Shown: positions 6,992 through 24,320 of the stretch, piece by piece
Layout: every line of letters begins with the position of its first letter
How positions within the stretch are numbered: the stretch's first letter is position 1
From: Oscillospiraceae bacterium
Lineage (GTDB): Bacteria; Bacillota; Clostridia; Oscillospirales; Ruminococcaceae
Length of the DNA stretch: 32,614 nucleotides
Assembly (NCBI GenBank): GCA_009781425.1
Contig: WQYC01000032.1
Location: 1 to 32,614 of the forward strand
Direction: 5' to 3'
Program-made: the position numbers and the translations under genes
The notes under the pieces: model-generated
The model's database searches: none
What the model saw: only the letters and a program-made list of their open reading frames with translations
What the model was told of the DNA's origin: nothing

Positions 6992-7442
6992 AGAAAAATT
7001 AACTCGCCGCGAAATGCGGGAAGCCGCGTTTCTGCTGCTGTATCAAGTTGAAGCGGCAGGCGGCGGCAAGGAAGATTTATCAGTAATAACGCTTGACTGC
7101 GTCGAGATGTTCGGCTTAGTGCTGAACTCGGCGTCGGTGAAGCTTGCCGAGGGCGTGCTTGATAACAAGGACGCGTTGGATTCAATCATCGAAAAATACA
7201 GCCAAACGCGCAAGGTTGGGCGGATTCCGCGGATTAACCTCACGATTATGCGTATGGGCTTGTATGAAATGGATTTCATGCCCGAAATTCCCGATAAGGT
7301 CGCAATGAACGAGGCGATTGAGCTTTCCAAGGACTACGCTTACGAGCCCGACAGCAAGCTAATCAGCGGACTCCTCGGTTCATACTACAAGGATAAATTT
7401 AATGTAGGGAACGACGTCCCCGGCGTTCCGCCGAATGAGTAG
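6984..7442 (+). CDS. nusB: Transcription antitermination protein NusB
   Basis: 152 residues. NusB binds boxA with NusE/S10 during rRNA antitermination. LTRREMREAAFLLLYQVEA (6-24) is the classic opening and RIPRINLTIMRMGLYEM plus VAMNEAIELSKDYA mark the later helices. After SKLISGLLGSYYKDKF the normal protein ends soon; here the tail VGNDVPGVP (141-149) is encoded by a 27-bp family B unit. The insertion is at the extreme C-terminus and should leave the fold intact. It overlaps both neighbours by 8 nt. Confidence 0.95.
   Translation: MSKEKLTRREMREAAFLLLYQVEAAGGGKEDLSVITLDCVEMFGLVLNSASVKLAEGVLDNKDALDSIIEKYSQTRKVGRIPRINLTIMRMGLYEMDFMPEIPDKVAMNEAIELSKDYAYEPDSKLISGLLGSYYKDKFNVGNDVPGVPPNE
7404..7430 (+). 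repeat. Family B solo 27-bp unit in nusB
   Basis: Left arm GTAGGGAACGACG, right arm CGGCGTTCCG, loop TCCC; variable stem dinucleotide AA/TT. Translates as VGNDVPGVP in frame. Confidence 0.88.
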
Positions 7443-8529
7443 CCGCTTCATCGCAACCGTCTCGCAGGTCAACCGCCGTGTATCGCTCAACTTTAAGAAC
7501 GATAATGCGCTGGCAGAGCTTCATGTAAAGGGCGAAATCTCGAATTTTGTTCATCATTACAAGTCGGGGCATATTTATTTCACGCTCAAGGACAGCGAAA
7601 GTGCATTAAAGTGCGTGATGTTCAACCTTGAAGCCGAGCGGCTGACCTTTCAGCCCGAAAATGGGCAGACTGTAATTGCGGGCGGGCGAATCGGTGTTTA
7701 CGAGCGGGACGGCGTATATCAGCTTTACGCAAGCTCGATTGAGCTTCCCGAAGCTGAACCCGACGAAAAAAAAGAAGAGAATATTTACGAAGCGTTCCTG
7801 AAGCTGAGAGAAAAGTTAGACAAAGAAGGCGTCTTCTCGAACAGCAGAGCCTTACCCGCCTACCCGAAGAAAATCTGCTTGATTACAGCGCGGGACGGCG
7901 CGGCGTTGCAGGATATGCTAAGCGTTTTCGCGCGGCGTTATCCGCTTGTTGAGGTTTTGCTTATTCCTGCACTTGTGCAGGGGCAGACTGCGCAGAAGTC
8001 GCTCATAAGCGCGTTGAAAACTGCAAACTCCGCAGTAAACTGCGCAGAAGCGGACTTCATAATTTTAGCGCGGGGCGGCGGCTCGGCGGAGGATTTATGG
8101 GCTTTCAATGACGAAGCCTTAGCGCGGGCGATTTATGGAAGCGGGCTTCCTGTAGTTTCCGCAGTCGGGCACGAAACGGACTTTACAATCGCAGACTTCG
8201 CGGCGGACTTGCGCGCGCCGACTCCCTCTGCGGCGGCGGAAATTACCACGCCGGACTTATCAGAGCTGTCGTTTTATCTTGACAATTTGCTTTTGAATTT
8301 ACAGCAGAAAATCCACAGAAAACTTGAACGCAAGAAGAACAAGCTCGAAGGCTTGGAAAGAATCATTAATGCGCTGAGCCCCGAAAAGACGTTTGCAAGG
8401 GGCTATGCGGCGGTGTTCGGCAAGGACGGCAAAGCCGTGAAAAGCACGGAAAATATAAATATAAACGACGAGCTGAAAATAAGGCTCGCGGACGGCGAGT
8501 TAAAAGTCGCTGTTAAAAATAAAACGTAG
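7435..8529 (+). CDS. xseA: Exodeoxyribonuclease VII large subunit
   Basis: 364 residues, somewhat shorter than the usual ~400-450. With XseB it degrades single-stranded DNA to oligonucleotides. N-terminal OB fold: HVKGEISNFVHHYKSGHIYF (30-49), VIAGGRIGVYERDGVYQLY. Catalytic domain: ICLITARDGAALQDML, ILARGGGSAEDLWAFNDEAL and VGHETDFTIADFAADLRAPTP (split here into two adjacent motifs), then a coiled coil (285-318) that binds small subunits. Overlaps nusB by 8 nt. The TAG stop comes from a family B element. Confidence 0.96.
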   Translation: MSSRFIATVSQVNRRVSLNFKNDNALAELHVKGEISNFVHHYKSGHIYFTLKDSESALKCVMFNLEAERLTFQPENGQTVIAGGRIGVYERDGVYQLYASSIELPEAEPDEKKEENIYEAFLKLREKLDKEGVFSNSRALPAYPKKICLITARDGAALQDMLSVFARRYPLVEVLLIPALVQGQTAQKSLISALKTANSAVNCAEADFIILARGGGSAEDLWAFNDEALARAIYGSGLPVVSAVGHETDFTIADFAADLRAPTPSAAAEITTPDLSELSFYLDNLLLNLQQKIHRKLERKKNKLEGLERIINALSPEKTFARGYAAVFGKDGKAVKSTENININDELKIRLADGELKVAVKNKT

Positions 8530-8595
8530 TGAACGGATTTATCCGTTCCGCAAAAACGAACGCAATGCAACGGAACGCATAAATGCGTTCCCTAC
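8526..8595. repeat. Family B inverted pair, 70 bp, between xseA and xseB
   Basis: Two outward-facing 25-bp hairpin units around a 20-bp spacer. The left unit is GTAGTG instead of GTAGGG and gives the TAG stop of xseA. Confidence 0.87.
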
Positions 8596-8618
8596 AAAAC
8601 CCCCGAAAGGAAATAAAA

Positions 8619-8810
8619 ATGAAAAAAGAAATCGAAACCTCAATGAACCGCTTAAATGAAATCTCGCTTCTCATGAACGACGACGCGCTTTCGCTGGAGG
8701 ACGCGCTCGCGCTTTACACGGAGGCGCAGGAGCTTGCAACGCACTGCAAGGCAGACATGGCGGCGGCGCAGGTCGCGCTGAAGGAAATATTTTTTGGCGG
8801 TGAAGCATGA
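8619..8810 (+). CDS. xseB: Exodeoxyribonuclease VII small subunit
   Basis: 63 residues from ATG 8619, which has AAAGGA 7 nt upstream. An in-frame ATG at 8583 lies inside the repeat and is unlikely. Pattern of the family: SMNRLNEISLLMNDDALSLEDALALYTEAQELA, then CKADMAAAQVAL. The stop TGA overlaps the ispA start (ATGA). Confidence 0.93.
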   Translation: MKKEIETSMNRLNEISLLMNDDALSLEDALALYTEAQELATHCKADMAAAQVALKEIFFGGEA

Positions 8811-9553
8811 CAATTGACAATTTTCAATTGACAATGGACAATTATTTAAAATTGATAGAAGAAGCGTTGGTTATAAACGGCGATTCGCCGTTGAAAGAAG
8901 TAATGCAGTACAGCTTAAACGCAGGCGGGAAGCGAATCCGTCCGATTCTGACGTTGGCTTTCGGCGGAACGCCGAAAATCGCCGCCGCGATTGAAATATT
9001 GCATACTTCTACATTAATTCAAGACGACCTACCTTGCATGGATGACGATGATGAAAGGCGCGGGAAGCCCGCCTGTCACAAGGCTTTTTCGGAAGCCGAT
9101 GCGGTTTTAGCGGCAAGCAAAATGGCTTACGAAGCAATAATCATGCTCGAAGACCCTCGGATTATAAAAGCCGTCTGTAATTATATGTCTGCTGTCTATG
9201 ACGGGCAGAAATTAGATTTATCCGTAGGGAACGACGCCCTCGGCGTTCCGGTTAAAGCAGATATTGTGCAAATTTACGAGCGCAAAACCTGCGCGCTGAT
9301 TCAAGCGGCGTGCGTGGCGGGGGTCTTGTCCGCGAAAGGCAGTAACAGCGCGATAAAAAACGCCGCGGCTTACGGCTATAACCTCGGCATGGCGTTTCAG
9401 CTTATCGACGATATTCTTGACAACGAGAACAGCGAAAACGCCCGCGCGGAAGCGGAAAAATATACAAAGGAAGCACTCGCCTTACTCGAAAACGTGCCAA
9501 ACAATGCATTTTTAGTCGAGCTTACAAAAAATTTACTTGACAGAAAGAACTGA
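8807..9553 (+). CDS. ispA: Polyprenyl synthetase (farnesyl diphosphate synthase type)
   Basis: 248 residues, short for the family (~290). Condenses DMAPP/GPP with IPP. First Asp-rich motif at STLIQDDLPCMDDDDERRGKPACH, second at MAFQLIDDILD. GGKRIRPIL is the IPP-binding opening. The N-terminus (MTIDNFQLTMDN) is encoded by a heptad array, which also contains ATG 8834 as an alternative start. Between YDGQKLDLS and IVQIYERKTCALI sits VGNDALGVP (140-148), from a 27-bp family B unit in a loop. The second motif has lost the last Asp-rich extension, so activity is likely but untested. Confidence 0.9.
   Translation: MTIDNFQLTMDNYLKLIEEALVINGDSPLKEVMQYSLNAGGKRIRPILTLAFGGTPKIAAAIEILHTSTLIQDDLPCMDDDDERRGKPACHKAFSEADAVLAASKMAYEAIIMLEDPRIIKAVCNYMSAVYDGQKLDLSVGNDALGVPVKADIVQIYERKTCALIQAACVAGVLSAKGSNSAIKNAAAYGYNLGMAFQLIDDILDNENSENARAEAEKYTKEALALLENVPNNAFLVELTKNLLDRKN
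8810..8844 (+). repeat. Family A heptanucleotide array, 5 units, at the ispA start
   Basis: ACAATTG, ACAATTT, TCAATTG, ACAATGG, ACAATTA: exactly 35 bp. It starts on the last base of the xseB stop and encodes the N-terminus of IspA. Confidence 0.87.
9224..9250 (+). repeat. Family B solo 27-bp unit in ispA
   Basis: Left arm GTAGGGAACGACG, right arm CGGCGTTCCG, stem dinucleotide AA/TT. Translates as VGNDALGVP. Confidence 0.88.
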
Positions 9554-9554
9554 T

Positions 9555-10010
9555 ATGGAAAACATTTACAATCCGCCGCTTGTGGCGGCGGTGCTGAGCT
9601 GGTTTATAGCGCAGTTAATAAAGGTTTTAATCAACGTAATACAGCACAAAAAGCTGAACGTCGAGCGGTTTTTGGGTGCAGGCGGTATGCCCTCGTCGCA
9701 TTCGGCGGCGGTCTGCGCCTTGGCGGCGGGGCTCGGCGTAACTGAGGGCGTTAACTCTCCTATGTTCGCGCTTGCTTTTGTTTTGGCGGTGATTGTAATG
9801 TACGACGCTTCGGGCGTTCGGCGCGCCGCAGGTATGCACGCGCGGGAAATCAACAAAATCAAGGACGCAATCAGCGACATATTCATGAAAAGAAACGTCG
9901 AAGAGAAGAAAAAATACTTAAAAGAGTTTATAGGACATTCGCCGCTTGAGGTGTTTTTCGGCGCGATTTTCGGCATAGCTATGGGAATCGTATTTACAAT
10001 GTACAGTTAA
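9555..10010 (+). CDS. Divergent PAP2 family membrane protein (DUF212, YuiD-like)
   Basis: 151 residues from ATG 9555; an in-frame TTG at 9537 would overlap ispA and is less likely. The pattern WFIAQLIKV, GGMPSSHSAAVCALA and MYDASGVRRAAGMHA is typical of DUF212 proteins, distant relatives of PAP2 phosphatases that keep SSHSA and the GVRRAAG-like motif. About four membrane helices. The last residues (TMYS) and the stop lie in a heptad array. Placement between ispA and dxs suggests, but does not prove, a role in isoprenoid phosphate handling. Confidence 0.88.
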   Translation: MENIYNPPLVAAVLSWFIAQLIKVLINVIQHKKLNVERFLGAGGMPSSHSAAVCALAAGLGVTEGVNSPMFALAFVLAVIVMYDASGVRRAAGMHAREINKIKDAISDIFMKRNVEEKKKYLKEFIGHSPLEVFFGAIFGIAMGIVFTMYS

Positions 10011-10030
10011 CAATGAACAATGTACAATTA
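9996..10030 (+). repeat. Family A heptanucleotide array, 5 units, spanning yuiD-like stop and dxs start
   Basis: ACAATGT, ACAGTTA, ACAATGA, ACAATGT, ACAATTA: exactly 35 bp. It contains the stop of the DUF212 gene (10008-10010), and its last A is the A of the possible dxs ATG. Confidence 0.87.
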
Positions 10031-11811
10031 TGGAGGAGCTTGATTTGTTTCTGACTCGCGATATAAGTCCTGCGCGCTTAAAAAGCATGACGCTTGCAGA
10101 GAAAAATAAGCTCTGCGAGGAAATACGAAGCCTTTTAGTTTCTGTTGTTTCAAAAAACGGCGGGCACTTGGCGTCTAATCTCGGCACGGTTGAGCTGATT
10201 GTCGCTATGCACTCGGTTTTCACTACGCCGCGCGACAGCTTTGTTTTCGATGTCGGGCACCAGGCGTACACGCATAAGCTTCTGACGGGCAGACTCGCGG
10301 ATTTTGGCAAGCTTCGGCAGGAGGGCGGCATATCGGGCTTCCCGAAGCCGTCGGAATCGGAGCATGATTCTTTCATCGGCGGGCACGCGAGCATAGCCGT
10401 TTCGGCAGGGCTCGGAATCGCCGCCGCGAAGTCGCTGAACAATGAAAGCGGCAACGTCGTCGTTGTCGCGGGGGACGGCTCCTTCACGGGCGGCGGGATT
10501 TATGAGGGGCTGAACAACGCGGGCAAGCTGAAACGCAGCTTCACGGTCGTGCTGAACGACAACGGTATGTGCATTTCCAAAAGCTCGGGCGCGTTCGCTT
10601 CGTATCTGTCGAAAATCCGCACAAAAAGCTACTACGAAGCGAAAAGCCGCGTGAAAAAAATTCTCGGCAGAAGCACGCTCGGCAAGGGCGTTTCGGGAGC
10701 AATCGGCGAGACAAAAAGATTCGTGAAGGGCGCGCTGATTCCCGAAAATTTGTTCGAGAATCTTGGTTTTAAATACTTCGGACCTGTTGATGGACATAAT
10801 TTAGAGGAACTGATTTTCATATTAGAGCACGTCAAAACGATTGACAAGCCCTGCCTTGTTCACGTCATGACGAAAAAAGGCAAGGGGCACGCGCCCGCCG
10901 AGGAAAACGCGGGGCATTATCACGGCGTAATAGCGGATAATATACCTCAGCACGCAGACACATACTCCGAGGTTTTCGGTAAAGAAATAACCCGGCTCGG
11001 CGCAGAAAACGGCAGAATCTGTCTCATTACAGCCGCAATGAAATACGCAACGGGGTGCAATTATTTCGCGAAAAGCTTCCCCGAACGCTTCTTTGACGCG
11101 GGGATTGCCGAGGCGCACGCCGCGACCTTTGCGGCAGGGCTCGCAAGCGGAAGCTCAAAGCTGCTGCCTGTTTTCGCAGTTTACAGCACGTTTTTGCAAC
11201 GCGCTTTTGACCAGCTTCTGCACGACGCCGCGATTGAAAAGCTGCGCTTGGTCTTAGCTGTTGACCGCGCGGGACTGAGCGGTGAGGACGGCGCGACACA
11301 TCAGGGAACGTTCGATGTCGGCTTGCTTTCGCTGATTCCGGGGACGACAATTTACGCGCCGCTGACCGCCGAAGAACTGCGTTTATGCCTCAAAAAAGCC
11401 TTATATGAGGACGCGGGAATTGCCGCCGTGCGCTATCCGCGCGGGATTGCTTTCAACCCGCAAAACGAGGAAGCACGCGCCGATTTCGCATATTACAATA
11501 ATAATTCAAGCACGCTTTTAATCACCTACGGCAGACCCGTGAAGCCTGCCATGAAGCTATTGCGGCACGGCGCGGATGTGCTAAGACTTATACGGCTGAA
11601 CCCGCTCCCCGACGAGGTTTTCAAGATTGTGAGCGGCTACGAAAACGTCGTGTTTTTTGAAGAAGGCGCGCCCTGTATCGCTAACAAATTCTCTGCAAAA
11701 AACTACAAATTCCGCGCGATTGAAGACTTCCTGCCTGTTGCGGATTTAGAGCGGCAGATGGAGCTTTGCGGCTTTGACGAGCGGGGCATGAAAGAGTTCG
11801 CGGGCTTATGA
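10030..11811 (+). CDS. dxs: 1-deoxy-D-xylulose-5-phosphate synthase
   Basis: 593 residues. Joins pyruvate and glyceraldehyde-3-phosphate with ThDP, the first step of the MEP pathway. Motifs: NGGHLASNLGTVELIVAMH (43-61), the ThDP site GDGSFTGGG...LNDN, YFGPVDGHNLEELI, TKKGKGHAPAEE, and the transketolase-type DRAGLSGEDGATHQG. Start is uncertain. ATG 10030 uses the last base of the heptad array and has no SD. TTG 10045 has a perfect GGAGGAG (10032-10038) 6 nt upstream, giving 588 residues and fitting better. Overlaps tlyA as ATGA. Confidence 0.95.
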   Translation: MEELDLFLTRDISPARLKSMTLAEKNKLCEEIRSLLVSVVSKNGGHLASNLGTVELIVAMHSVFTTPRDSFVFDVGHQAYTHKLLTGRLADFGKLRQEGGISGFPKPSESEHDSFIGGHASIAVSAGLGIAAAKSLNNESGNVVVVAGDGSFTGGGIYEGLNNAGKLKRSFTVVLNDNGMCISKSSGAFASYLSKIRTKSYYEAKSRVKKILGRSTLGKGVSGAIGETKRFVKGALIPENLFENLGFKYFGPVDGHNLEELIFILEHVKTIDKPCLVHVMTKKGKGHAPAEENAGHYHGVIADNIPQHADTYSEVFGKEITRLGAENGRICLITAAMKYATGCNYFAKSFPERFFDAGIAEAHAATFAAGLASGSSKLLPVFAVYSTFLQRAFDQLLHDAAIEKLRLVLAVDRAGLSGEDGATHQGTFDVGLLSLIPGTTIYAPLTAEELRLCLKKALYEDAGIAAVRYPRGIAFNPQNEEARADFAYYNNNSSTLLITYGRPVKPAMKLLRHGADVLRLIRLNPLPDEVFKIVSGYENVVFFEEGAPCIANKFSAKNYKFRAIEDFLPVADLERQMELCGFDERGMKEFAGL

Positions 11812-12530
11812 CGGATATGAAAAGGTTAGATTTAGCCGTCCCCGCCGAGAGCAGAAGCAAGGCGCAGGAGCTGATAAAAAGCAGGAACGTAAAGGTTAAC
11901 GGCGAAGTAATTACGAAGCCGTCCGCGCTTGTTTCCGAGGAAGCCGAGATTGAAATAGTTTCAGCACCGAAGTACATCGGGCGGGCGGGCTATAAGCTTG
12001 AAGCGGCGGCAGAAGCGTTCGGGATAGATTTCACGGGGCTTGTCTGCCTTGACGCGGGCGCGTCAACAGGCGGCTTCACCGACTTAATGCTTCAAAAAGG
12101 TGCGCGGAAAGTCTATGCTGTCGATGTCGGCGAGAATCAGCTTCACGATAGTCTGCGAGCTAACTCGCGCGTTATAAGTATCGAGAAACAGGATATACGA
12201 ACGTTCATATTAGATAGTGAATATGAACTTGTCGATTTCATCGCGGCGGACTTGTCGTTTATATCGTTGAAGCTTATTATCCCTTGCTTTGCGAATCTAC
12301 TGAAGCCCGAGGGGAGATGTGTGGTATTGATTAAGCCTCAGTTTGAGATAGGTAAGCGGTACTTCAAAAACGGTATAGTTACCGACAAGAAGCTAATCGG
12401 TAGCATAGTGCGCGATATAGAAACGTTCATATCTGAATGTCGTTATGAAATAATAGGAACAGTGGAATCAAAACTGAACGAAAAAGGCAGGAACAGCGAA
12501 TTCCTGTGCTATTTTAAGGTGAAATCATGA
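11808..12530 (+). CDS. tlyA: TlyA family rRNA (cytidine-2'-O)-methyltransferase
   Basis: 240 residues. An S4 RNA-binding domain comes first (RLDLAVPAESRSKAQELIKS, 5-24, then VKVNGEVI), then an FtsJ-like methyltransferase domain: VCLDAGASTGGFTDLMLQ, YAVDVG, FIAADLSFISL and VVLIKPQFE. TlyA methylates ribose in 16S and/or 23S rRNA; the old name hemolysin A refers to this family. Placed between dxs and nadK as in many Firmicutes. ATGA overlaps on both sides. Confidence 0.92.
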   Translation: MTDMKRLDLAVPAESRSKAQELIKSRNVKVNGEVITKPSALVSEEAEIEIVSAPKYIGRAGYKLEAAAEAFGIDFTGLVCLDAGASTGGFTDLMLQKGARKVYAVDVGENQLHDSLRANSRVISIEKQDIRTFILDSEYELVDFIAADLSFISLKLIIPCFANLLKPEGRCVVLIKPQFEIGKRYFKNGIVTDKKLIGSIVRDIETFISECRYEIIGTVESKLNEKGRNSEFLCYFKVKS

Positions 12531-13324
12531 AAGCTATAATTTGCAAAAACGAAAAGAAAAAAGACGACCGAAGCAGTGAAGCTATTGCGGAGGTTCAGAA
12601 AAAGCTGCATGAATACGGCATTGAGTCGGTGCTTGGAAACATTTGCGCTGACTGCGACCTCGTGATTGCTGTCGGCGGCGACGGTACTATTCTGCACCAC
12701 GGAAAAGCCGCGGCACGACTGAATTTGCCTCTGCTCGGCATAAACACAGGGCGGCTCGGCTTCATGACTACGCTTGAAGTCAGCGAGCTTGATAAATTAG
12801 AACTACTAAAGAGCGGGAATTGGCAGACCTGCCCGCGCATGATGCTCGATGTTGAGATAGGCGGGGAGCGGCTTCTCGCGCTCAACGACGTGGTTTTTCT
12901 CAAGGATATAAATTCAAAGCTCCCCGAATATAAGGTCAGTGCAGACGGCGCAATCATCTCCGAGCTTCGCGCGGACGGCTTGATTTTAAGCACGCCGACA
13001 GGCTCGACGGCTTACGCGCTGTCGGCAGGCGGTCCCATTATCGAGCCGTGGCTTGACTGCATTGAGCTGACGCCGATGTGCGCGCACTCGCTGTTCAACC
13101 GCCCTGTTATCCTTTCGGCAGAAAACCCTTTAACAGTCCACTTCGACGGCAATGACGACAGCCATTCTGTCTTTGTTTCTGTTGACGGTGGACGCGGAAT
13201 TGAGTTCAAGGCGGGTGAAAAAGCGGTTATCCGCAAATCCGCACTGCGGCTGTCTTTAATCAACCTCGGCGGCAGAAGCTTCCACGCAGCAGTGAGCAAT
13301 AAATTAATGAAATCAATCAAATAA
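12527..13324 (+). CDS. nadK: NAD kinase
   Basis: 265 residues. Phosphorylates NAD to NADP. Seen: VIAVGGDGTILHHGKAA (46-62) with the GGDG motif, LLGINTGRLGFMTT, LNDVVF, and LSTPTGSTAYALSAGGPII. Normal length for Gram-positive NadK. Preceded by AAGGTGA and a 4-nt overlap with tlyA. Confidence 0.95.
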   Translation: MKAIICKNEKKKDDRSSEAIAEVQKKLHEYGIESVLGNICADCDLVIAVGGDGTILHHGKAAARLNLPLLGINTGRLGFMTTLEVSELDKLELLKSGNWQTCPRMMLDVEIGGERLLALNDVVFLKDINSKLPEYKVSADGAIISELRADGLILSTPTGSTAYALSAGGPIIEPWLDCIELTPMCAHSLFNRPVILSAENPLTVHFDGNDDSHSVFVSVDGGRGIEFKAGEKAVIRKSALRLSLINLGGRSFHAAVSNKLMKSIK

Positions 13325-13345
13325 AAAATAAAGGAGAGTAAAATC

Positions 13346-13732
13346 ATGACATTCTTAGCAAAATGCGGAAAATGCAATGAGAGCCTCAAAATCGACCCGA
13401 CCCAGAAAGAGGCGGTGTGCCCTGCTTGCAACGCGCCCTTCGTCTTTGAGAGGACAACCTTTAACAGCGAAATGGCGGACGAAGCCCTGCTCAAAGCCGA
13501 GCTAATCAAGAAATACGACGAGAAAATCGAAGACCTGAACGCCGACATCGCCAAGTTCAACGCCGAGAAAAACGAATTGCAAACTAAAATCAATCGCAGA
13601 AGCATTTTAGGCAAGTCGTCCAAGGCGGGCTTGCAAGACGAAATGGCACTCGTTGACGCGAAAATCGAAGCCGCTGAAAGCGAGATTTTAATCGCGGAAA
13701 CCAAGAAGTTAGACCTGTACAGCAATGCGTAA
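13346..13732 (+). CDS. Zinc-ribbon plus coiled-coil protein
   Basis: 128 residues; not a named family that I recognise. Two CxxC knuckles (KCGKCNESL and VCPACNAPF, Cys 7/10 and 29/32) form a probable zinc ribbon, followed by a long charged helix with heptads (about 45-125). No membrane span. Strong SD AAAGGAGA before ATG 13346. It sits between nadK and argR, which are adjacent in many relatives, and overlaps argR by 8 nt. Confidence 0.65.
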   Translation: MTFLAKCGKCNESLKIDPTQKEAVCPACNAPFVFERTTFNSEMADEALLKAELIKKYDEKIEDLNADIAKFNAEKNELQTKINRRSILGKSSKAGLQDEMALVDAKIEAAESEILIAETKKLDLYSNA

Positions 13733-14159
13733 AAAGCGACTGGGTGCAATCCTTTCCATAATTCGCGAGAAGGAAATTGAGAACCAGGAAATGCTGCGTG
13801 AGGAGCTTTCAAGGCTCGGCTTTGAAACCACGCAGGCGACTGTTTCGCGCGATATAAAAGAGCTGCGCTTGGAAAAGATTTCCGAGCATGGCATTAGTCG
13901 CTATGTCCGCGAGAATTCGGCGAAAAACCCGGTGTCTGCCGACATTTTCAAGCAGGCGGTGACAAGCGTTGACTACGCCTTGAACACCGTCGTGCTGAAG
14001 TGCGAGGCGGGCTGGGCAGGCGGCGCGTGCTCGGCTTTTGACCGCATGAGCTTCCCGCATACAATCGGGACAATCGCAGGTGACGACACGGTTTTTATTC
14101 TCATGCGGACTGAAAAAGACGCCAAAGAGCTTTATGAAAATATTTTAGGATTATTGTAA
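13725..14159 (+). CDS. argR: Arginine repressor ArgR/AhrC
   Basis: 144 residues. Winged HTH at the N-terminus (LGAILSIIREKEIENQEML, then ETTQATVSRDIKELRLEKI). The C-terminal hexamerisation and arginine-binding domain ends with GTIAGDDTVFILMRT, the family signature. Controls arginine genes with arginine as corepressor; in Firmicutes it commonly precedes recN, as here. Its stop and the recN start overlap by 1 nt (TAATG). Confidence 0.94.
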   Translation: MRKKRLGAILSIIREKEIENQEMLREELSRLGFETTQATVSRDIKELRLEKISEHGISRYVRENSAKNPVSADIFKQAVTSVDYALNTVVLKCEAGWAGGACSAFDRMSFPHTIGTIAGDDTVFILMRTEKDAKELYENILGLL

Positions 14160-15745
14160 TGTTAAAAGAATTATATATTGAAAATTTAGCCGTCATAGAA
14201 GAGACCTCCGTCAATCTCGGCGCGGGTTTAACCGTCTTTACGGGCGAAACAGGCGCGGGAAAAAGCATACTCATCGGCGGAATCAAGGCGATTCTGGGCG
14301 GGCGGGTTTCAAAGGATTTAATAAGAAGCGGAGCGGAAAAGGCAGTCGTCACCGCTCTTTTTGAGGTTAATGGAGAAGAACTGCTTCTGACAAGAGAAAT
14401 CAGCGGCTCGGGCACTTCTGTTGCGCGAATCAACAATAAACCTGTGACGGCGGCGGACTTGAAGGACGCGGCGGCTTTGCTGATTGATATTCACGGTCAG
14501 CACGACAGCAGAACGCTCACAGACAACGTTCATCAGCGCGAATTGCTTGACAACTTCGGCAGGTTGACGGGCTACTTGGAGGAGTACGCAGGTGTCTTCA
14601 AAAGCTTTTCGGAGCTTTCGAGAAGAATCAAAAAACTGCAAGCCGATGAAAATATTAAGTCGGAGAAAACCCTGTTGTTGAAAGAGAAAATAGATGATGT
14701 AAACGCCTATAAGTTGACGCGCGGCGAGGAGGAAGAAGTCTCCGTGAAGCTCGCCGCCGCCCGAAATTCAAAGGCGATAAAGCAGAGCTTAACGACTGCG
14801 CGCTCCTGCCTTTCGGGGAGCAGCGACGCGTTCGGCGCGGCGGACTTGATAGGTCAGTGCAGGGCGAGCTTGCAGGAGGTTGCAGAGTTTCTGCCCGATT
14901 CGGACGAGCTTCTGAAACGCCTCAGAAGCGCGGAAATCGAGCTTGACGATATTCGCGGTGATATTGCGGCGTTGGACAGCGATAATTTCGATTCCGAGCA
15001 GACAGCGCGGCTCGAAGAACGCATGAGCGATTTACTTCGCTTGAAGCGCAAATACAGGCTTGATATTGACGAATTGATTGACGAGCATGAGAAATGGCGC
15101 GATGAATTAGCCGAGCTTGAATATTCCGAAGACATGACAGAAAAGCTACTCGCAGAGCGGAAAACAGTCGGTGACAACCTCAAAAGATTGGCGGGAATAA
15201 TAACCGAAAAACGCAAAGAAACTGCCGAAGAATTAGCGGCGAAAATCACGGACGAGCTCATCGAGCTTGATATGCCGAATGTGCGGCTTTTCTTCGCTTT
15301 AACGCAGGAAAAGGTCACTGTCAGCGGCATGGACGGCGTTGAAATCATGATTTCCGTCAACAAGGGCGAAGAGCCCAAGCCGCTCGCAAAAATCGCGTCA
15401 GGCGGCGAGCTTTCGCGGATTATGCTGGCGATTAAAGCGGTTTTGGCTGAAAGCGACTCAACACCGACTATGATTTTCGACGAAATCGACACGGGAATCA
15501 GTGGGCGAGCCGCGCAAAAAGTCGGCGCGAAGCTTGCGGAAATCGCTGAAAAGCGGCAGGTGCTCTGCGTTACGCACTTGGCTTCAATCGCCGCAAAAGC
15601 CGATAAGCACCTGCTAATCGAGAAAACAAGCGACGAAACACGGACATACACCCGTGTTTCGGAGTTGGATTTAGAGCAGAGAAAGCGCGAACTTGCGCGG
15701 ATTATTTCGGGAGACGAGGAAGAACTGACAATCAAAATAGGTTGA
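14159..15745 (+). CDS. recN: DNA repair protein RecN
   Basis: 528 residues, about 25-30 short of the usual 550-560. SMC-like ATPase in double-strand break repair. Walker A FTGETGAGKSILIGGI (27-42), LIDIHGQHDSRTL, a coiled-coil middle (160-350), the ABC signature ASGGELSRIMLAIKAVL, and Walker B MIFDEIDTGISGRAAQKVG. The C-terminus stops at RIISGDEEELTIKIG, without the final helix that usually follows ISG. The stop codon directly abuts the stop of a convergent gene, so the 3' end may have been replaced. Confidence 0.95.
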   Translation: MLKELYIENLAVIEETSVNLGAGLTVFTGETGAGKSILIGGIKAILGGRVSKDLIRSGAEKAVVTALFEVNGEELLLTREISGSGTSVARINNKPVTAADLKDAAALLIDIHGQHDSRTLTDNVHQRELLDNFGRLTGYLEEYAGVFKSFSELSRRIKKLQADENIKSEKTLLLKEKIDDVNAYKLTRGEEEEVSVKLAAARNSKAIKQSLTTARSCLSGSSDAFGAADLIGQCRASLQEVAEFLPDSDELLKRLRSAEIELDDIRGDIAALDSDNFDSEQTARLEERMSDLLRLKRKYRLDIDELIDEHEKWRDELAELEYSEDMTEKLLAERKTVGDNLKRLAGIITEKRKETAEELAAKITDELIELDMPNVRLFFALTQEKVTVSGMDGVEIMISVNKGEEPKPLAKIASGGELSRIMLAIKAVLAESDSTPTMIFDEIDTGISGRAAQKVGAKLAEIAEKRQVLCVTHLASIAAKADKHLLIEKTSDETRTYTRVSELDLEQRKRELARIISGDEEELTIKIG

Positions 15746-17598: not shown

Positions 17599-18076
17599 TA
17601 AAGCGTTCCGCGAGAAGTACGAGCCGCTGTTGCAAAGCGTAATCACACCGCGCTATGTTTGGAAAACGGCAGACATTAATTGCACGTTTTTGCAAGGCTC
17701 TGACATCAAAAAGCACGTCGAAAATTGCGATAAAATCATCGTCCTTGCCGCGACGCTCGGCTTGCAGGTTGACGAGCTGATTCGGCAGACGGAAGCCGCC
17801 GATATGGCGGGGGCAGTGGTTTTGGACGCGCTCGCAAGCGCGGCGATTGAGCAAGTTTGTGACGAAGCGATGAAAAAAATACAACTGTCAACTGTCAACT
17901 GTCAACTGTCAACTCGCTTCAGTCCGGGTTACGGCGACTTCCCGTTAGAAGTGCAGGGTGAGCTTCTCGCGCTTCTCGGCGCGAAAAAGAAAATCGGGCT
18001 GTATGTAAATGAATCGAATCTGCTGATTCCGCGCAAATCGGTAACGGCAGTTATTGGCTGTAGGGAACGGTTTTAA
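17579..18076 (+). CDS. MetH reactivation (AdoMet-binding) domain as a separate protein
   Basis: 165 residues from TTG 17579 (AGAGGT 5 nt upstream), overlapping the preceding gene by 20 nt. It matches the vitamin B12-dependent methionine synthase activation domain: IIVLAATLGLQVDELIRQTE, AIEQVCDEA, then RFSPGYGDFPLEVQGELLALL with the RxSPGYGDxP AdoMet-binding motif. In E. coli this is the MetH C-terminus; here it is split off, as in many Clostridia. A heptad array (residues 101-112, IQLSTVNCQLST) interrupts the region just before the motif. The last residues (CRERF) and the stop lie in a family B element. Confidence 0.9.
   Translation: MNLQKIDKAFREKYEPLLQSVITPRYVWKTADINCTFLQGSDIKKHVENCDKIIVLAATLGLQVDELIRQTEAADMAGAVVLDALASAAIEQVCDEAMKKIQLSTVNCQLSTRFSPGYGDFPLEVQGELLALLGAKKKIGLYVNESNLLIPRKSVTAVIGCRERF
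17881..17915 (+). repeat. Family A heptanucleotide array, 5 units, inside the MetH-activation gene
   Basis: ACAACTG, three TCAACTG, TCAACTC: exactly 35 bp. It uses the AACTG version of the unit and is fully translated. Confidence 0.87.
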
Positions 18077-18121
18077 CCGTTCCATATAAATGTAAACGGA
18101 ACGCATTAATGCGTTCCCTAC
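18060..18121. repeat. Family B inverted pair, 62 bp, before metH
   Basis: Two outward-facing 25-bp units around a 12-bp spacer. The stop (TAA 18074-18076) of the preceding gene lies in the left unit, here read in a different frame so GTAG is not the stop. The right end is directly followed by the metH SD. Confidence 0.88.
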
Positions 18122-18136
18122 AAAGGAGAAAGTATT

Positions 18137-20524
18137 TTGAACTTCATCGACTTATTAAAATCAGATAAGCTTATCTTCGCGGACGGCGCGCAAGGCACAG
18201 AGCTGCGCAAATTAGTGCAGAAGCCAATTGAATCCCCGCACCTGTTAAATTTTGAAAATCCCGAAATAGTAAAGCAGGTTGCACGTTCTTACGCCGAGGC
18301 AGGCTCGGACTTCGTCTGCGCGAACTCGTTCAGCATAAACCGCTTCAACGTTGCAGACGTAGACGCGGAAATTAAACAGGCGCTCGCAATCACGAAAGAA
18401 GCACTTGCAGGAACAAATGCGCTGACTGCCCTTGACGTGACCACGCTCGGAAGGCTCTTAGAGCCCGCGGGTTCGCTGACGTTTGAGGAAGCGTATGATA
18501 TTTACAAGGAAATAATGACGGCAGGTGAAAAACACGGCGCAGACTTGGTAATTCTCGAAACCATGACGGACTTGTACGAAACAAAAGCCGCGCTGTTGGC
18601 TTTAAAGGAAAACACAAGCCTGCCCGTGATTTGCTCAATGACTTTCGAGCAAAACGGCAGAACGTTCACAGGTACGCCGATTACCTGCATGGCGGCGACG
18701 CTTGAAGGGCTCGGCGCGGACGTGCTCGGCATTAACTGCTCATTAGGACCTGTTGAGTTAAAACCGCTTGTTCAGGAACTGCTTGCCTGCACAACATTGC
18801 CTGTTATGGTGAAGCCGAACGCAGGCTTGCCGAATCCCGAAACAGGGGAATTTAAGCTGTCGGCGGCAGATTTTGCGGAAGCTATGGCGGAATTTAAAGG
18901 CGTGAAAATCATGGGCGGCTGCTGCGGGACTACGCCGGAGTTTATCGAAACAATGTACAATGCACAATGCACAATGCACAATTGTACATTGTCAATTGTC
19001 AATTGTCAATTATCTACCGTCTGTGGTGCAACCACAGCGGTAGATATTTCCCGCCCCCGCATTATCGGCGAACGCATAAACCCCACAGGCAAAAAGCTTA
19101 TGAAGCAGGCGCTGCTCGACAACGACATGGGTTATATCCTCAAGCAAGCCGCCGAGCAATTAAGTGCAAACGCCGATATTCTTGACATAAACGTAGGCGC
19201 GGCAGGAATTGACGAAGTGCAAATGCTTCCAAAAGTCGTCAAAGCCGTGCAAGGCATAACTGGAATCCCGTTGCAATTAGACAGTACTAACGCAGCGGCG
19301 TTAGAAGCCGCTCTGCGCGTAACGAACGGCAAGCCGATTGTAAACTCCGTGAACGCCGAGGACGAGAGCCTTGAAGCGATTCTGCCGCTCGTTAAGAAAT
19401 ATGGCGCGGCGGTAGTCGGCTTAACGCTTGACAAATCGGGAATCCCCGAAACAGCCGAGGGGAGACTCGCTCTCGCGGAGAAGATTCTGAACCGCGCGCT
19501 TGCGCTCGGAATCAAGCGCGAAGACGTTTTTATAGATTGCTTGACTTTAACTGCGGGAGCAGAGCAAAAAAGCGCGCAGGAAACCTTAAAAGCTGTCGCG
19601 CTTGTTAAAGAAAAGCTCGGCTTAAAAACAGTTCTCGGCGTGTCTAATATCTCGTTCGGGCTTCCCGAGCGCGGGATTATAAACCGCACGTTCCTTGCGC
19701 TCGCGCTTCAGAGCGGGCTTGATTTGCCGATTATGAACCCGAACGAGAAGGACATGAGCGATACGGTGCGGGCGTTTAATGTGCTTGCGGGGCATGATAA
19801 AAATGCGGTTGAATACGTGGTTTCTGCGAACATTAACCACCCCGCCGCTTCGCGGCACCCCTCCACGGAGGGGAATGACATAACATTAGAATACGCTGTG
19901 CTGAACGGCTTAAAAGCCGAAGCTGTTGCGATTACGCGAAAACTCTTGAACGGGACGACAGGGTCGTCGTCCCCTACAGAACCTTTGGAAATCATCAACG
20001 GCGCGTTAATCCCTGCTTTAGATAAAGTCGGCGAATTATTTGAGAGCGGGAAAATTTTCCTCCCGCAGTTAATGCTCTCCGCCGAAAGCGCAAGCGCCTG
20101 CTTTGAAATCATAAATGTAGGGCGCGACGCCCTCGGCGCGCCGTCTGCTTCCGACAAAAAAATCATCTTAGCCACCGTCAAGGGCGATATTCACGACATC
20201 GGCAAAAACATCGTCCGCACGCTTTTAGAAAGCTACGGCTACAACGTGGTTGACCTTGGCAGAGACGTAGACTGCGCAGTTATTTTGGAAGAAGTAAAAC
20301 GGCAGAACGTAAAGCTCGTCGGACTATCCGCGCTCATGACCCCGACGCTCCCCGCAATGGAGGAGGCTACGCGGCTTATAAAGTCTGCAACAGACTGCAG
20401 AGTCATGGTCGGCGGCGCGGTAGTAACCGAGGACTGGGCGAAGAAAATCGGTGCGGACTTCTACGGAAAGGACGCAAAAAGCGCGGTTGACATAGCAGGA
20501 AGAATTTTCCGTATTACAAACTAA
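18137..20524 (+). CDS. metH: Cobalamin-dependent methionine synthase, without reactivation domain
   Basis: 795 residues from TTG 18137 (AAAGGAG 8 nt upstream). Moves the methyl group of 5-methyl-THF to homocysteine. Homocysteine domain (1-270) with DGAQGTEL and the zinc site MGGCCGTTPEF; pterin domain (about 305-560) starting RIIGERINPTGKKL; B12 cap and binding domains with DIHDIGKN (about 685). Four repeat-derived stretches: heptads at 272-293, NHPAASRHPSTEGND at 567-581, TTGSSSPT at 605-614 and VGRDALGAP at 661-669. The first, second and last are probably interdomain linkers. The reactivation domain is the gene at 17579. Confidence 0.95.
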   Translation: MNFIDLLKSDKLIFADGAQGTELRKLVQKPIESPHLLNFENPEIVKQVARSYAEAGSDFVCANSFSINRFNVADVDAEIKQALAITKEALAGTNALTALDVTTLGRLLEPAGSLTFEEAYDIYKEIMTAGEKHGADLVILETMTDLYETKAALLALKENTSLPVICSMTFEQNGRTFTGTPITCMAATLEGLGADVLGINCSLGPVELKPLVQELLACTTLPVMVKPNAGLPNPETGEFKLSAADFAEAMAEFKGVKIMGGCCGTTPEFIETMYNAQCTMHNCTLSIVNCQLSTVCGATTAVDISRPRIIGERINPTGKKLMKQALLDNDMGYILKQAAEQLSANADILDINVGAAGIDEVQMLPKVVKAVQGITGIPLQLDSTNAAALEAALRVTNGKPIVNSVNAEDESLEAILPLVKKYGAAVVGLTLDKSGIPETAEGRLALAEKILNRALALGIKREDVFIDCLTLTAGAEQKSAQETLKAVALVKEKLGLKTVLGVSNISFGLPERGIINRTFLALALQSGLDLPIMNPNEKDMSDTVRAFNVLAGHDKNAVEYVVSANINHPAASRHPSTEGNDITLEYAVLNGLKAEAVAITRKLLNGTTGSSSPTEPLEIINGALIPALDKVGELFESGKIFLPQLMLSAESASACFEIINVGRDALGAPSASDKKIILATVKGDIHDIGKNIVRTLLESYGYNVVDLGRDVDCAVILEEVKRQNVKLVGLSALMTPTLPAMEEATRLIKSATDCRVMVGGAVVTEDWAKKIGADFYGKDAKSAVDIAGRIFRITN
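18950..19013 (+). repeat. Family A heptanucleotide array, about 9 units, inside metH
   Basis: Four ACAATGY units lead into ACAATTGT, then the direction flips to ATTGTCA-like units, so the array is itself a rough inverted repeat. It lies between the homocysteine and pterin domains. Confidence 0.85.
19011..19046. repeat. 36-bp palindrome in metH, next to the heptad array
   Basis: TATCTACCG (19011-19019) pairs with CGGTAGATA (19038-19046), and CTGTGGT (19021-19027) with ACCACAG (19031-19037). One bulged T, GCA loop. Encodes STVCGATTAVD; single copy in this window. Confidence 0.65.
19833..19878 (+). repeat. Family C two-hairpin palindrome inside metH
   Basis: TTAACCACCCC, hairpin GCCGC/GCGGC, then CCCCTCC/GGAGGGG and AATGAC. 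Encodes NHPAASRHPSTEGND. Confidence 0.8.
19951..19977 (-). repeat. Family B solo 27-bp unit in metH, reverse orientation
   Basis: Read on the minus strand: left arm GTAGGGGACGACG, right arm TGTCGTCCCG. The variable stem dinucleotide is GA/TC, so pairing is kept. The metH strand reads it as TTGSSSPT. Confidence 0.82.
20117..20143 (+). repeat. Family B solo 27-bp unit in metH, forward
   Basis: Left arm GTAGGGCGCGACG, right arm CGGCGCGCCG; variable stem dinucleotide CG/CG. Encodes VGRDALGAP just before the cobalamin-binding domain. Confidence 0.88.
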
Positions 20525-20544
20525 TTACAAAACGCGAAAAACAC

Positions 20545-20573: not shown

Positions 20574-20614
20574 TATACAGTACGAAAAAAATAATAAATT
20601 TCATGGAGGTAATC

Positions 20615-22480
20615 ATGGAAAACAATAATATCAGAAAAAACCGCGCACCCGTTGTCGTTATACTTATTTGTATGTTCTTGGCGGGGGCAATGGCGGCAGG
20701 GCTTTTATTCTTTATGTCGGGCGGCGCGTCCTCTTACGAGAGAGCGGAGCGCAATTCGCTGAACGCGCTTTTCTCGGGCGCTTCAAGCCTTTTCGTAACT
20801 GACGCGGCAGAATCGGGAAGCATTGTAATCACCCCGTCGAAGGAGCTCGCCGCTTTAACAGGGCTTGACCTTTCGGAGCTCGGCTCGCTTACGCTCAGCT
20901 ACGAAATGATTCTTGAAAACAGCAGTGACATTTACGCACTGCTCGGCGCGGAAATCTTCGGAATAGGCGCGTCTGTCGAGTTTTGGCAAATCGGGCAGGA
21001 AATAATCGCTCATTTCCCGGGAATATCCGATTACTACATACTTCTCAGCGGTATAATGGGAATGTCGGGCATGGACGCCTTGGCTGGCTACGACTTAGAC
21101 GTTGATTTCGACAAAATCATGAACGAAGTTAAAATCATCGGCGAAGCGGTGCTTGATAAATACTTTGAGCTGACCGCAAACATAGAGTCTAAGTGGAGCG
21201 AGCAGGTAACTGTAGGCGAGCTTAGCAAAAACGCCGACGTTTTTGAAATTATCATGGACTTAGAGTTTTTATACGAGCTCGTGGTAGTCGGCTTTGAAGC
21301 GTTCCTTGACAGCGATGAAATTTACGGTTTAGCCAAAACACTGTATGATATTTCCGAAGACCCGTGGAAGGAATACTCGTGGTATCGCTCGTTCGATGAA
21401 GCGATAAACGAAATGCGCGAAGAGCTTTACGACGTTGAGCCGTGGGATTTAGAGGGAGACGAATTCATCACCATGCGCGTCTATATCAGCGGGAATGAAG
21501 TTGTCCGCCGCGATATAAGCATAGAAGACGTAACGCTCAGCTTTTCGTCCATCACCGAGAAAAACGGTCAGTACGCGAGAAGCGCGAGATTCACCTCAAA
21601 AGACTGGCGCGGAAACACCTCGGTTATAAGCTTCCGCGACGAGGGCACAGCAGACAAAAACGGCTACAGCACAGGGCAGATTCGTGCTTCCTTCGCTGAT
21701 GATTACGACAGCTACTCGCTCACAATCAAATACGAGGACTTCAAGTGCTACAGCAACGGCTTAATCGGCGGCGATATTAAAATCAGCGTTCCGATTCAAG
21801 AGGGCTTGAACGTTGATATTAACTTTAAGTCCACCGTAACAGGCGACAGCATGAATGCAAAAGGCTCGGTGGCTGTCTTCGGCATGAAAGCAGTTGATAT
21901 TGAAATCAACACCAACATAAACACAGGAAAAAGCATAAGCAGACCCGCGCTGACAAACAATAACACTATCGACCCCTCCGACTGGCGCGCATTGGAAAAA
22001 TTAGAAGAAGACTTCGAGCGTTGGGCGGAAGCTTTAGACCTTTATACATTATTTGATGACCTTTTCTATTACAGTGGGTTGAGTTCGCTTTTCCCAAGCA
22101 ATTATGAAGCTGTTTTATCACCTTGGGACGACGATTGGTATGGAAACTACTGCTACGAATGTTACGAAATCCACGAAGAGTGGGAAAGCTGCATAGACTG
22201 GGAGAATTGGTGCACAGGCGATGAATGGTGCTGGTGCAACGACTGCTATGTTTATGAATGTGTCGGTGAGATGTTCTGCTGGTGCGACGACTGCGTTGAC
22301 ACGTGGACATGGGAAGAATATGAAGCATACTGGGACGAATATTGGGCTTCTTTTGACCCCTGCACAGCTTCAAGCAGAATAACCTGTTTCTGCGAAGATT
22401 GTTTTGACTGGGACAGGGAAGATTGGGACGATATTGACTGGGATGCTTATTCCGACTGGGCTGAATTTGTTTACGAATAA
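20615..22480 (+). CDS. Membrane-anchored protein with Cys/Trp-rich acidic C-terminal tail
   Basis: 621 residues from ATG 20615 (GGAGGT just upstream; ATG 20564 lies over the promoter). No family recognised. Basic N-terminus, one membrane anchor (about 12-34, VVVILICMFLAGAMAAGLLFF), then ~470 residues of mostly beta-like and helical soluble sequence, predicted outside the cell. From about residue 504 the composition changes: in ~118 residues there are 15 Cys and 16 Trp among many Asp, Glu and Tyr. It holds three C-[WF]-C-[NDE]-D-C motifs (EWCWCNDC, MFCWCDDC, TCFCEDC). Only two other Cys occur in the rest of the protein. Metal binding or disulfide structure is possible but unproven. Confidence 0.75.
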   Translation: MENNNIRKNRAPVVVILICMFLAGAMAAGLLFFMSGGASSYERAERNSLNALFSGASSLFVTDAAESGSIVITPSKELAALTGLDLSELGSLTLSYEMILENSSDIYALLGAEIFGIGASVEFWQIGQEIIAHFPGISDYYILLSGIMGMSGMDALAGYDLDVDFDKIMNEVKIIGEAVLDKYFELTANIESKWSEQVTVGELSKNADVFEIIMDLEFLYELVVVGFEAFLDSDEIYGLAKTLYDISEDPWKEYSWYRSFDEAINEMREELYDVEPWDLEGDEFITMRVYISGNEVVRRDISIEDVTLSFSSITEKNGQYARSARFTSKDWRGNTSVISFRDEGTADKNGYSTGQIRASFADDYDSYSLTIKYEDFKCYSNGLIGGDIKISVPIQEGLNVDINFKSTVTGDSMNAKGSVAVFGMKAVDIEINTNINTGKSISRPALTNNNTIDPSDWRALEKLEEDFERWAEALDLYTLFDDLFYYSGLSSLFPSNYEAVLSPWDDDWYGNYCYECYEIHEEWESCIDWENWCTGDEWCWCNDCYVYECVGEMFCWCDDCVDTWTWEEYEAYWDEYWASFDPCTASSRITCFCEDCFDWDREDWDDIDWDAYSDWAEFVYE

Positions 22481-22508
22481 TTAAACATACGGGAGGGTTA
22501 AATAAACT

Positions 22509-24320
22509 TTGGACTACCCTAAAAACATTCGCAATTTCTGCATAATCGCGCACATTGACCACGGCAAGTCTACCCTTGCCGACAGGATTTTAGAGCTTAC
22601 GCAGACAGTTGCGCTGCGCGATATGGAAGCACAGCTTCTCGATAATATGGACTTAGAGCGGGAGCGCGGGATTACTATTAAAGCCCGCGCTGTCCGCATG
22701 AATTACGTTGCTGAAGACGGCTCGGAGTATGTCCTGAATCTAATTGACACGCCCGGGCACGTTGACTTCAGCTATGAGGTCAGCCGAAGCTTAAACGCCT
22801 GCGAGGGCGCGATTCTTATTGTTGACGCGTCGCAGGGAATCGAAGCGCAGACATTAGCGAACGCCTACTTAGCGGTTGAAGCGGATTTAGAAATAGTCCC
22901 TGTTATAAACAAAATCGACCTCCCTGCCGCTGACCCGAAAGCCGCGAAAGAGGAAGTCGAAAGCGTAATCGGCATACCCGCTATGGACGCGCCCGAGATT
23001 TCCGCGAAGAACGGGATTAATATCCGTGAAGTCTTAGAGCAGGTTATCAAGCTTGTTCCGCCGCCTGTAGGGTGCGACGTCCCCGGCGCACCGTTCCGTG
23101 CGTTAATATTCGACAGCTATTACGATACTTACAAGGGCGTAATTATTTATATCCGCGTGAAAGAAGGCAAAATCGCACAGGGCGACAAAATCCGCATGAT
23201 GGCGACAGGCGCAGAGTTCCAAATAGTTGAGCTTGGTTACATGGGCGCGACGGGCTTGGTTCAAGCCGCCGAGCTGAAAGCGGGGGAAGCGGGCTTTATC
23301 TCGGCTTCGATTAAGTCTATCAGCGATACGCAGGTCGGCGACACGGTCACAGCCGTGGCGAACCCCGCGCAGGAAGCCTTGCCCGGCTATCGCCCTGTTC
23401 TGCCGATGGTTTTCAGCGGGATTTATCCCGTGGACGGCGCGAAATACAACGACCTCAAGGACGCACTTGAAAAGCTGCGCCTTAACGACGCCGCGCTGAC
23501 CTTTGAAGCGGAAACAAGTAACGCGCTCGGCTTCGGCTTCCGTTGCGGGTTCTTAGGACTTCTGCACATGGAAATCATTCAGGAGCGGCTTGAGCGCGAG
23601 TATAACCTTGACTTAATCACCACTGCGCCGTCTGTTATCTATGAAATTGAGCTGACAAGCGGCGAAATCGTAAAAATCGACAACCCCGCGAATTACCCGA
23701 ACCCGACTGAAATCGCACAGGCGTTCGAGCCTATGACCGACTCGCACATAATTGCACCTGCCGAGTATATCGGCGCGATTATGGAAATAAGCATAGAGCG
23801 GCGCGGAGTTTTCAAGGACATGAAATATCTTGACGAAAAGCGGGTAGACATGAATTTCGACCTGCCGCTCAACGAAATTGTTTACGACTTTTTCGATTTG
23901 CTCAAGTCCAAAACCCGCGGCTACGCGAGCTTTGACTATGAAATCAGCGGCTTTGTGCCGTCTAAATTAATCAAGCTTGATATACTGTTAAATGCAGAAG
24001 TCGTAGACGCGCTGTCGTTTATTGTGCACGTAGATAAGGCGTATACAAGAGGACGCAGAATCGCCGAAAAGCTGAAAGATAATATTCCGCGCCAGTTGTT
24101 CGAGGTGCCTATTCAGGCGGCAATCGGCGGGAAAATAATCGCCCGCGAAACTGTTAAGGCTATGAGAAAAGACGTACTCGCGAAATGCTACGGCGGGGAT
24201 ATAACGAGAAAGAAAAAGCTACTCGAAAAGCAAAAAGAGGGTAAGAAGAAGATGCGCCAGTTAGGCTCGGTGGAAGTGCCGCCGGAGGCGTTTATGGCAG
24301 TGTTGAAGTTGGATACTTGA
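22509..24320 (+). CDS. lepA: Elongation factor 4 (LepA)
   Basis: 603 residues from TTG 22509, with GGGAGGG about 10 nt upstream. Ribosome-binding translational GTPase. G motifs: [16 protein letters not shown] (13-28), [22 protein letters not shown] and NKIDLP. The LepA-specific C-terminus is seen in [30 protein letters not shown] and [27 protein letters not shown] (187-195), after KLVPPP, is encoded by a 27-bp family B unit. LepA normally has a G-D-x-x-A-P-like loop there, so the net length change is small. Confidence 0.96.
23067..23093 (+). repeat. Family B solo 27-bp unit in lepA
   Basis: Left arm GTAGGGTGCGACG, right arm CGGCGCACCG; variable stem dinucleotide TG/CA. Encodes VGCDVPGAP at a surface loop between the G domain and domain 2. 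Confidence 0.85.

Follow-up and report, generated by a model that had tools for sequence, protein, structure and literature searches.

The contig WQYC01000032.1 of an Oscillospiraceae bacterium (32,614 nucleotides; this whole stretch is called the window) carries five copies of a 27-bp hairpin with a GTAG foot, each translated in frame within a protein-coding gene. These cassettes are very probably GTAG-tagged repetitive extragenic palindromic (REP) elements, recognised and copied by a REP-associated tyrosine transposase (RAYT), which is an HUH/Y1 enzyme. The reading follows from the tag, the covarying stem, the high copy number, the inverted pairs and the presence of a RAYT in the genome. The element is of a known kind and the host group is new; its genic habit is unexplained.

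REP elements in the window and the genome

The original prediction, made from the letters of the window, had placed five 27-bp copies there, and all five were confirmed in position and strand:

7404..7430, forward strand: GTAG REP of 27 bp in nusB, near the C-terminus; reads VGNDVPGVP
9224..9250, forward strand: GTAG REP of 27 bp in the gene of a prenyl (farnesyl-type) diphosphate synthase ("ispA"); reads VGNDALGVP
19951..19977, reverse strand: GTAG REP of 27 bp, reversed, in metH; reads GTTGSSSPT
20117..20143, forward strand: GTAG REP of 27 bp in metH; reads VGRDALGAP
23067..23093, forward strand: GTAG REP of 27 bp in lepA; reads VGCDVPGAP and replaces a native loop of 7-9 residues

Their arms are as described there, GTAGGG-NN-CGACG on the left and a right arm ending in NN-CCG, with the NN pairs AA/TT, AA/TT, GA/TC, CG/CG and TG/CA, and the four forward copies do share the reading VGxDxxGxP. 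Shuffled sequences are expected to hold 0.03 such hairpins, and 0 of 100 shuffles reached five. Folded as DNA, the five 27-mers show a 4-base foot (GTAG), a stem and a 4-base loop, with an A.G mismatch after the sixth stem pair in four of them.

The genome holding the window (G000) comprises 2.55 Mb in 67 contigs. The exact 27-mer pattern, GTAGGGNNCGNCGNNNNCGNCGNNCCG, leaves two stem pairs free and fixes the other six. A scan for further copies had been proposed as a check. Run across the whole of G000 with up to two mismatches allowed, it gave 162 places, and the reversed control pattern matched nowhere. Hairpins of any length were sought with the GTAGGG tag, which is therefore fixed by design, in the window and 40 further stretches of G000 (832.6 kb in total, about a third of the genome); 156 were found, and five altered tags gave 0, 2, 0, 2 and 2 in the same scan. 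The main lengths are 27 bp (78 hairpins), 25 bp (59, with one palindrome counted on both strands) and 24 bp (14). Neighbours within 120 bp form inverted pairs with GTAG outside (head-head) in 39 of 42 cases, one of the 39 being a single palindrome seen on both strands. The base just before GTAG of the 27-mers is T in 69-72%, and a search for a CT cleavage dinucleotide beside the 27-mers showed no signal beyond this T.

Stem covariation

Both free stem pairs are complementary in 38 of the 42 exact copies (after shuffling, 7.5 on average and 18 at most), and the proposed covariation check gave a score of 0.276 against 0.084, a value reached in 0 of 500 shuffles. Among 29 distinct G000 copies (58 cells), both sides of a free pair changed in 31 cells, against 10.2 after shuffling, and one-sided changes (G-T type) occurred in none, an absence that leans towards folded single-stranded DNA rather than RNA. 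The claim that the hairpin and not its sequence is conserved holds for the free pairs, which covary and mark subfamilies; sequence conservation is also seen in the tag, in the loop and over most of the stem. Among REPs at the first of the two sites inside RAYT genes described below (site 1, n = 32), six of eight pairs covary, in a set picked by a scan requiring a paired stem.

Are the copies kept for a hairpin in the mRNA, acting on stability, pausing or regulation, with the stem conserved by selection in place? Covariation of the free pairs and residence inside genes would fit such a role, which we nevertheless consider very unlikely. The 58 cells contain no G-U type step; the 3 G-U steps in 232 at RAYT site 1 weigh less, because that scan demanded Watson-Crick stems. 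The copies lie on both strands and along many genes, and the orthologues of a close congener manage without them. Moreover, subfamilies that were compensated on both sides before they spread yield the same pattern without selection at each copy.

Residence inside genes

Genes were called with a home-made codon-usage caller, which marks 82.5% of the bases in the G000 sample as coding. The 27-mers fall mostly inside genes (58 coding, 8 at gene edges and 12 intergenic), whereas 25-mers do not (11, 20 and 28, respectively; 58/78 vs 11/59 inside genes, Fisher p = 6e-11). The 42 exact copies of GTAGGGNNCGNCGNNNNCGNCGNNCCG comprise 38 coding, 2 edge and 2 intergenic places in 34 host genes. When each gene is represented by its first copy, frame 0 of the same strand is used in 26 of 34 (p = 2e-12 against one in five), and the frames of all 58 coding 27-mers are 43 same-0, 12 opposite-2, 2 opposite-0 and 1 opposite-1. 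This frame skew shows selection or targeting at work. The core of the original prediction, a repeated palindrome in frame in unrelated genes with compensatory stem changes, is thus borne out by genome scan, frames and covariation. Two large G000 proteins (L253:16653-20000 and 11781-15176) contain many REP-encoded peptides each.

The same frames raise the possibility that selection acts on VGxDxxGxP as a protein motif, with the DNA palindrome as a by-product. That 43 of 58 coding 27-mers use a single frame would agree with this, as would the resemblance of the LepA copy to a native G-D-x-x-A-P loop. However, other settings account for 15 of the 58, including 12 in which the opposite strand is translated into a different peptide, and a copy in the relative G012 identical to the one at 9224 in the window sits outside called genes. 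A selected peptide is accordingly given very little credence.

Comparison with orthologues was made with G026, a close, REP-poor congener, of which about 820 kb were set against G000. A spanning orthologue was available for 43 of the 99 coding REP places. The same nine residues in all distant orthologues would have counted against the original prediction; in this close congener at most 4 of 9 match at the 35 compared 27-mer sites. The net length change at these sites ranges from -19 to +22 residues, with +7 in six and +9 in three, which does not support the view that every copy simply adds 27 bp. In lepA the caution expressed about a native loop was right: that loop, of 7 residues in most of 14 orthologues and 9 in G026, has been replaced, and a precise 27-bp presence or absence is not seen. 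The nusB element extends the C-terminus, where four aligned congener orthologues reach a stop within a few residues; the prenyl diphosphate synthase of G026 is 9 residues shorter in the loop at the 9224 copy; and the G026 orthologue of metH lacks 7 of the residues encoded by the reversed copy. Judged from these alignments, the copies appear to occupy variable loops, linkers and protein ends, with a clean insertion visible only sometimes.

The genic habit differs among relatives. The exact 27-mers are divided into 3 coding, 2 edge and 13 intergenic in G012 (n = 18) and 2 coding and 17 intergenic in G017 (n = 19). Coding copies number 2 of 11 in G045 and 6 of 12 in G076, both sets including RAYT loci, which add coding copies. 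A measure free of the caller took the longest open frame covering a copy and counted the copy as genic if that frame had at least 150 codons. The share is then 38/42 in G000, 5/18 in G012, 7/19 in G017, 4/7 in sample stretches of G076 and 0/4 in those of G045, where one stretch had been chosen at a site with copies already known; random G000 positions lie inside such a frame in 86.5% of cases. These counts set G000 apart from its congeners, with G076 between, and place its copies as if genes were irrelevant. More widely, 116 named stretches among the matches listed were used, 80 for gene context and all 116 for internal REPs. Among the matches listed, the 80 stretches hold 106 copies (85 intergenic, 19 coding and 2 edge); 72 of the records have Clostridia or Bacillota titles, 1 is unassigned and 7 lie elsewhere, 6 of these 7 holding unpaired matches that are probably due to chance.

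The strongest competing account is that the genic share stems only from gene-blind insertion followed by purifying selection against frame-breaking or otherwise harmful copies, to which we assign a probability somewhat below even. Frame-shifting 25-mers are rare in genes and 27-mers common, the G000 share in long open frames is close to that of random positions, and a null without selection (82.5% genic) is not rejected by 38/42. Yet with one tolerated strand-and-frame setting in six about 44% genic copies are expected, against the 38/42 observed (p = 3e-10). The strong frame skew implies much purging, but no intergenic excess accompanies it, and the same 27-mers lie mostly outside genes in G012 and G017. 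What the finding leaves unexplained is why one species has so high a genic share.

The RAYT enzyme

A search of G000 with PF01797 gave no match, as in several REP-rich relatives. A weak match in G052 is a RAYT with two in-frame REPs, and this protein as query found RAYTs, some in pieces, in G000, G012, G017, G020, G021, G039, G045, G052 and G076, and none in G026, G040, G062, G067, G085 or G088. Matches occur in 8 of 8 tested genomes with at least seven 27-mers and in 1 of 5 with one to four, G085 and G088 lying outside the copy count. The idea of REPs without a RAYT was dropped because this query found in G000 what PF01797 had missed. Strong PF01797 matches in G009, G014 and G031 were also discarded as candidates, belonging to a different, IS200-like protein; among the strong PF01797 loci, a GTAGGG hairpin lies nearby at L236 only (the G039 match is outside those read).

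The G000 gene (contig C1:120390-120938, beyond the window) is diverged and holds two such hairpins in frame. For all seven RAYTs scanned the best NCBIfam match is NF047646 (REP-associated tyrosine transposase), with scores of 54.7 to 65.9 bits that fall below the cut-off of 80 in 7/7. Alignments show the HUH motif and the C-terminal Tyr region, and a model of the G000 protein from a 42-sequence alignment (pLDDT 82.7) has as first fold match 4er8, the complex of a RAYT with a REP hairpin. By motif, Tyr region and predicted fold the protein is classed as a RAYT (TnpA_REP), with the predicted function of cleaving and transferring REP single strands. RAYTs are present in 90 of 394 genomes of an order-wide draw and 51 of 291 of a class-wide draw, at a stricter E-value, and viral contigs hold three distant relatives.

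REPs inside RAYT genes

Seventy RAYT loci were collected, of which 10 duplicates or fragments were set aside; the 60 examined include 3 without an open reading frame (ORF), leaving 57 ORFs. One REP before and one after the HUH motif are found in 47 of these, at least one REP in 8 others (55/57 in total) and none in 2, one of which has REPs beside the gene. The usual positions are about 41 residues before HUH on the same strand and about 14 after it on the opposite strand. The flanking pairs are 27+27 or 24+24 in 46 of 47, and their frames are same-0 with opposite-2 in 40 of 47, so that the RAYT-internal REPs use mainly the two frames dominant in host genes. The HUH segment is encoded between the two REPs, which are a median of 141 nt apart. 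On average, the two REPs of one gene mismatch at 1.09 positions and REPs of different genes at 8.20 (0 of 5000 permutations), and a REP's own partner is its nearest in 39 of 46, ties allowed. Two named records have the same layout (L131, JAEEJH010000140.1; L138, JAFULI010000121.1). In the RAYT tree host families are scattered, and both genes lacking REPs fall together in a single small group.

In the model of the G000 enzyme confidence is lower around both REP segments: pLDDT stays below 50 in the second and averages about 59 across the stretch containing the first. An alignment of E. coli rayT shows no insert at the two REP sites. Hairpin scans found none inside this gene, but they also miss the flanking REPs of E. 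coli itself, so that only the protein alignment counts as a control. Another arrangement is seen in RAYT genes at L402 (G017) and L448 (G163), which hold 25-bp REPs, both after HUH and in an order opposite to the common layout.

Origin of the genic copies

How might a palindrome come to be read in so many proteins? The RAYT would recognise the hairpin on single-stranded DNA by its GTAG foot and stem and copy it to new places, and the G000 RAYT, or a lost relative, may have moved the copies. Hairpins within the RAYT gene, 24 or 27 bp long with one open frame on each strand, would have to be translated there and would thereby be pre-fitted for insertions that leave other genes intact. Selection could then have retained the in-frame copies that fell in loops, in linkers or at protein ends, where the encoded VGxDxxGxP or GxxGxSxPT would be flexible.

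A bolder version, tentative and on balance unlikely, holds that the RAYT-REP system has in this lineage moved its niche from intergenic to coding DNA, that REPs kept translatable by the presence of two of them in the transposase gene are spreading across the proteome as in-frame inserts of nine residues, that new copies are biased to transcribed or translated DNA and not only filtered by selection, and that the HUH-flanking pair is a stored template or a self-binding brake for the RAYT. It is rated slightly lower because the copies in G017 and G076 are partly genic too.

Several observations weigh against copying by a RAYT as set out here. Transposition was not observed, and movement by the G000 enzyme or a lost relative is an inference. 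PF01797 gives no match in G000. A gain of exactly nine residues is seen at 3 of 35 sites, so that a simple insertion is not demonstrated at most of them. The gene calls rest on the home-made caller, with which the caller-free count agrees for G000. Only 11 of 156 G000 REPs lie within 3 mismatches of the two internal REPs of their own RAYT, and more lie near those of G076 (30) or G017 (49). Given this poor match, most of the G000 copies may derive from a RAYT that was lost or is missing from the assembly. Masking the free pairs brings 29 of the 78 27-mers to within 3 mismatches of the internal REPs of the G000 RAYT. The 49 REPs near the G017 pair are all 25-mers.

These elements matter because they provide a bacterium outside Rickettsia with a palindromic repeat in frame in many genes, including lepA and nusB. 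Since its genome also encodes a likely copying enzyme, and a REP-poor congener is available, the long-standing question of how genes come to tolerate palindromic elements can be tested with empty sites and an in-vitro enzyme. The translatability of the elements may itself stem from the need to be readable inside their own transposase gene.

Other repeats and genes of the window

The window also holds shorter REPs, mostly in inverted pairs:

4931..4955, forward strand: GTAG REP of 25 bp between genes; first half of an inverted pair
4997..5021, reverse strand: GTAG REP of 25 bp; second half of the pair with 4931; touches a gene end
5904..5928, forward strand: GTAG REP of 25 bp between genes
5932..5956, reverse strand: GTAG REP of 25 bp; inverted partner of 5904; touches a gene end
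8526..8550, forward strand: REP of 25 bp with a GTAGTG tag
8571..8595, reverse strand: GTAG REP of 25 bp; inverted partner of 8526
18060..18084, forward strand: GTAG REP of 25 bp at the gene end just before metH
18097..18121, reverse strand: GTAG REP of 25 bp; inverted partner of 18060

The host names proposed earlier stand in part: NusB and LepA score above NCBIfam cut-offs, as does xseA between nusB and the prenyl synthase gene, while the "ispA" product (similar to farnesyl diphosphate synthase) and the "metH" product (similar to methionine synthase) match below curated cut-offs. Rfam at gathering scores found two tRNAs only in the window.

Two other repeats occur. Tandem heptamer tracts of the CAATTGACAAT type lie at 18948-19017, inside the metH ORF, where the tract is read through, and at 3877, 8808, 9994 and 26212; the G000 sample has 17 places (6 coding, 8 intergenic and 3 edge). 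A hairpin-like repeat, GGCACCCCTCCACGGAGGGG, is a separate family found at 19836-19873 (metH), 4212 and 26476; of its 17 places in the G000 sample, 9 are coding and 8 are intergenic. In total, metH carries four repeat inserts.

Comparison with known systems

The cassettes had been likened to Rickettsia palindromic elements (RPEs). The likeness holds for palindromic repeats in frame in many unrelated genes, and fails for the GTAG foot, the RAYT in the genome and the length, mainly 24 to 27 bp here against RPEs described in part of the literature as about 150 bp in ten families (PMC10969869). An independent element of the Rickettsia type with no RAYT link would suit the in-frame residence and the missing PF01797 match. 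It seems highly improbable beside a RAYT gene with internal copies of the same hairpin type, and R. conorii RPEs are given a CGTC end, with no transposase link for CGTC repeats, in the relevant passages of PMC3733652.

REPINs, as outlined in PMC8049555, likewise consist of a closely spaced inverted REP pair; in G000 many of the genic 27-mers stand alone, and the inter-REP stretch of the RAYT genes encodes the HUH segment. Recognition of REPs as single-stranded DNA is reported for the E. coli and S. maltophilia enzymes in sections of PMC8266576.

The closest relatives are the GTAG REPs and their RAYTs. Passages of PMC3733652 (Di Nocera et al. 2013) and PMC2817692 describe a GTAG foot, a short imperfect palindrome, alternative complementary stem residues, head-head pairs, high copy number and a RAYT in the genome, all shared with G000. 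The former survey covers Proteobacteria, Cyanobacteria, Chloroflexi and the Planctomycetes-Verrucomicrobia-Chlamydiae (PVC) group; the host here is Clostridia-like, a group absent from those passages. No title or abstract in the literature searched, which left subscription papers and preprints outside its scope, concerned REPs in Clostridia genes. The earlier statement that no description is known does not survive, since parts of PMC3733652 and PMC6006769 already describe GTAG REPs with RAYTs, and REPs lying in frame in genes, RAYT genes included. GTAG REPs are typically extragenic, whereas the G000 27-mers are mostly genic, and the G000 25-mers and the 27-mers of G012 and G017 mostly not. Some GTAG REPs do lie in frame inside genes according to a passage of PMC3733652, so that genic residence alone leaves membership of the GTAG REPs intact.

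Within the RAYTs, the nearest match is tnpAREP subclass 2.4, whose genes, as presented in portions of PMC6006769 (2018), carry in-frame REPs, generally between HuH and Y. A matched REP pair on both sides of HUH was not found in that part of its text. The HUH-to-Y distance is about 58 here, by a rough pattern and not the profile of that work, against a subclass median of 88. The RAYTs described here share with this subclass the in-frame REPs and a protein that ends soon after the core, and differ from it, as far as those portions go, in having two fixed sites that flank HUH and hold matching partners.

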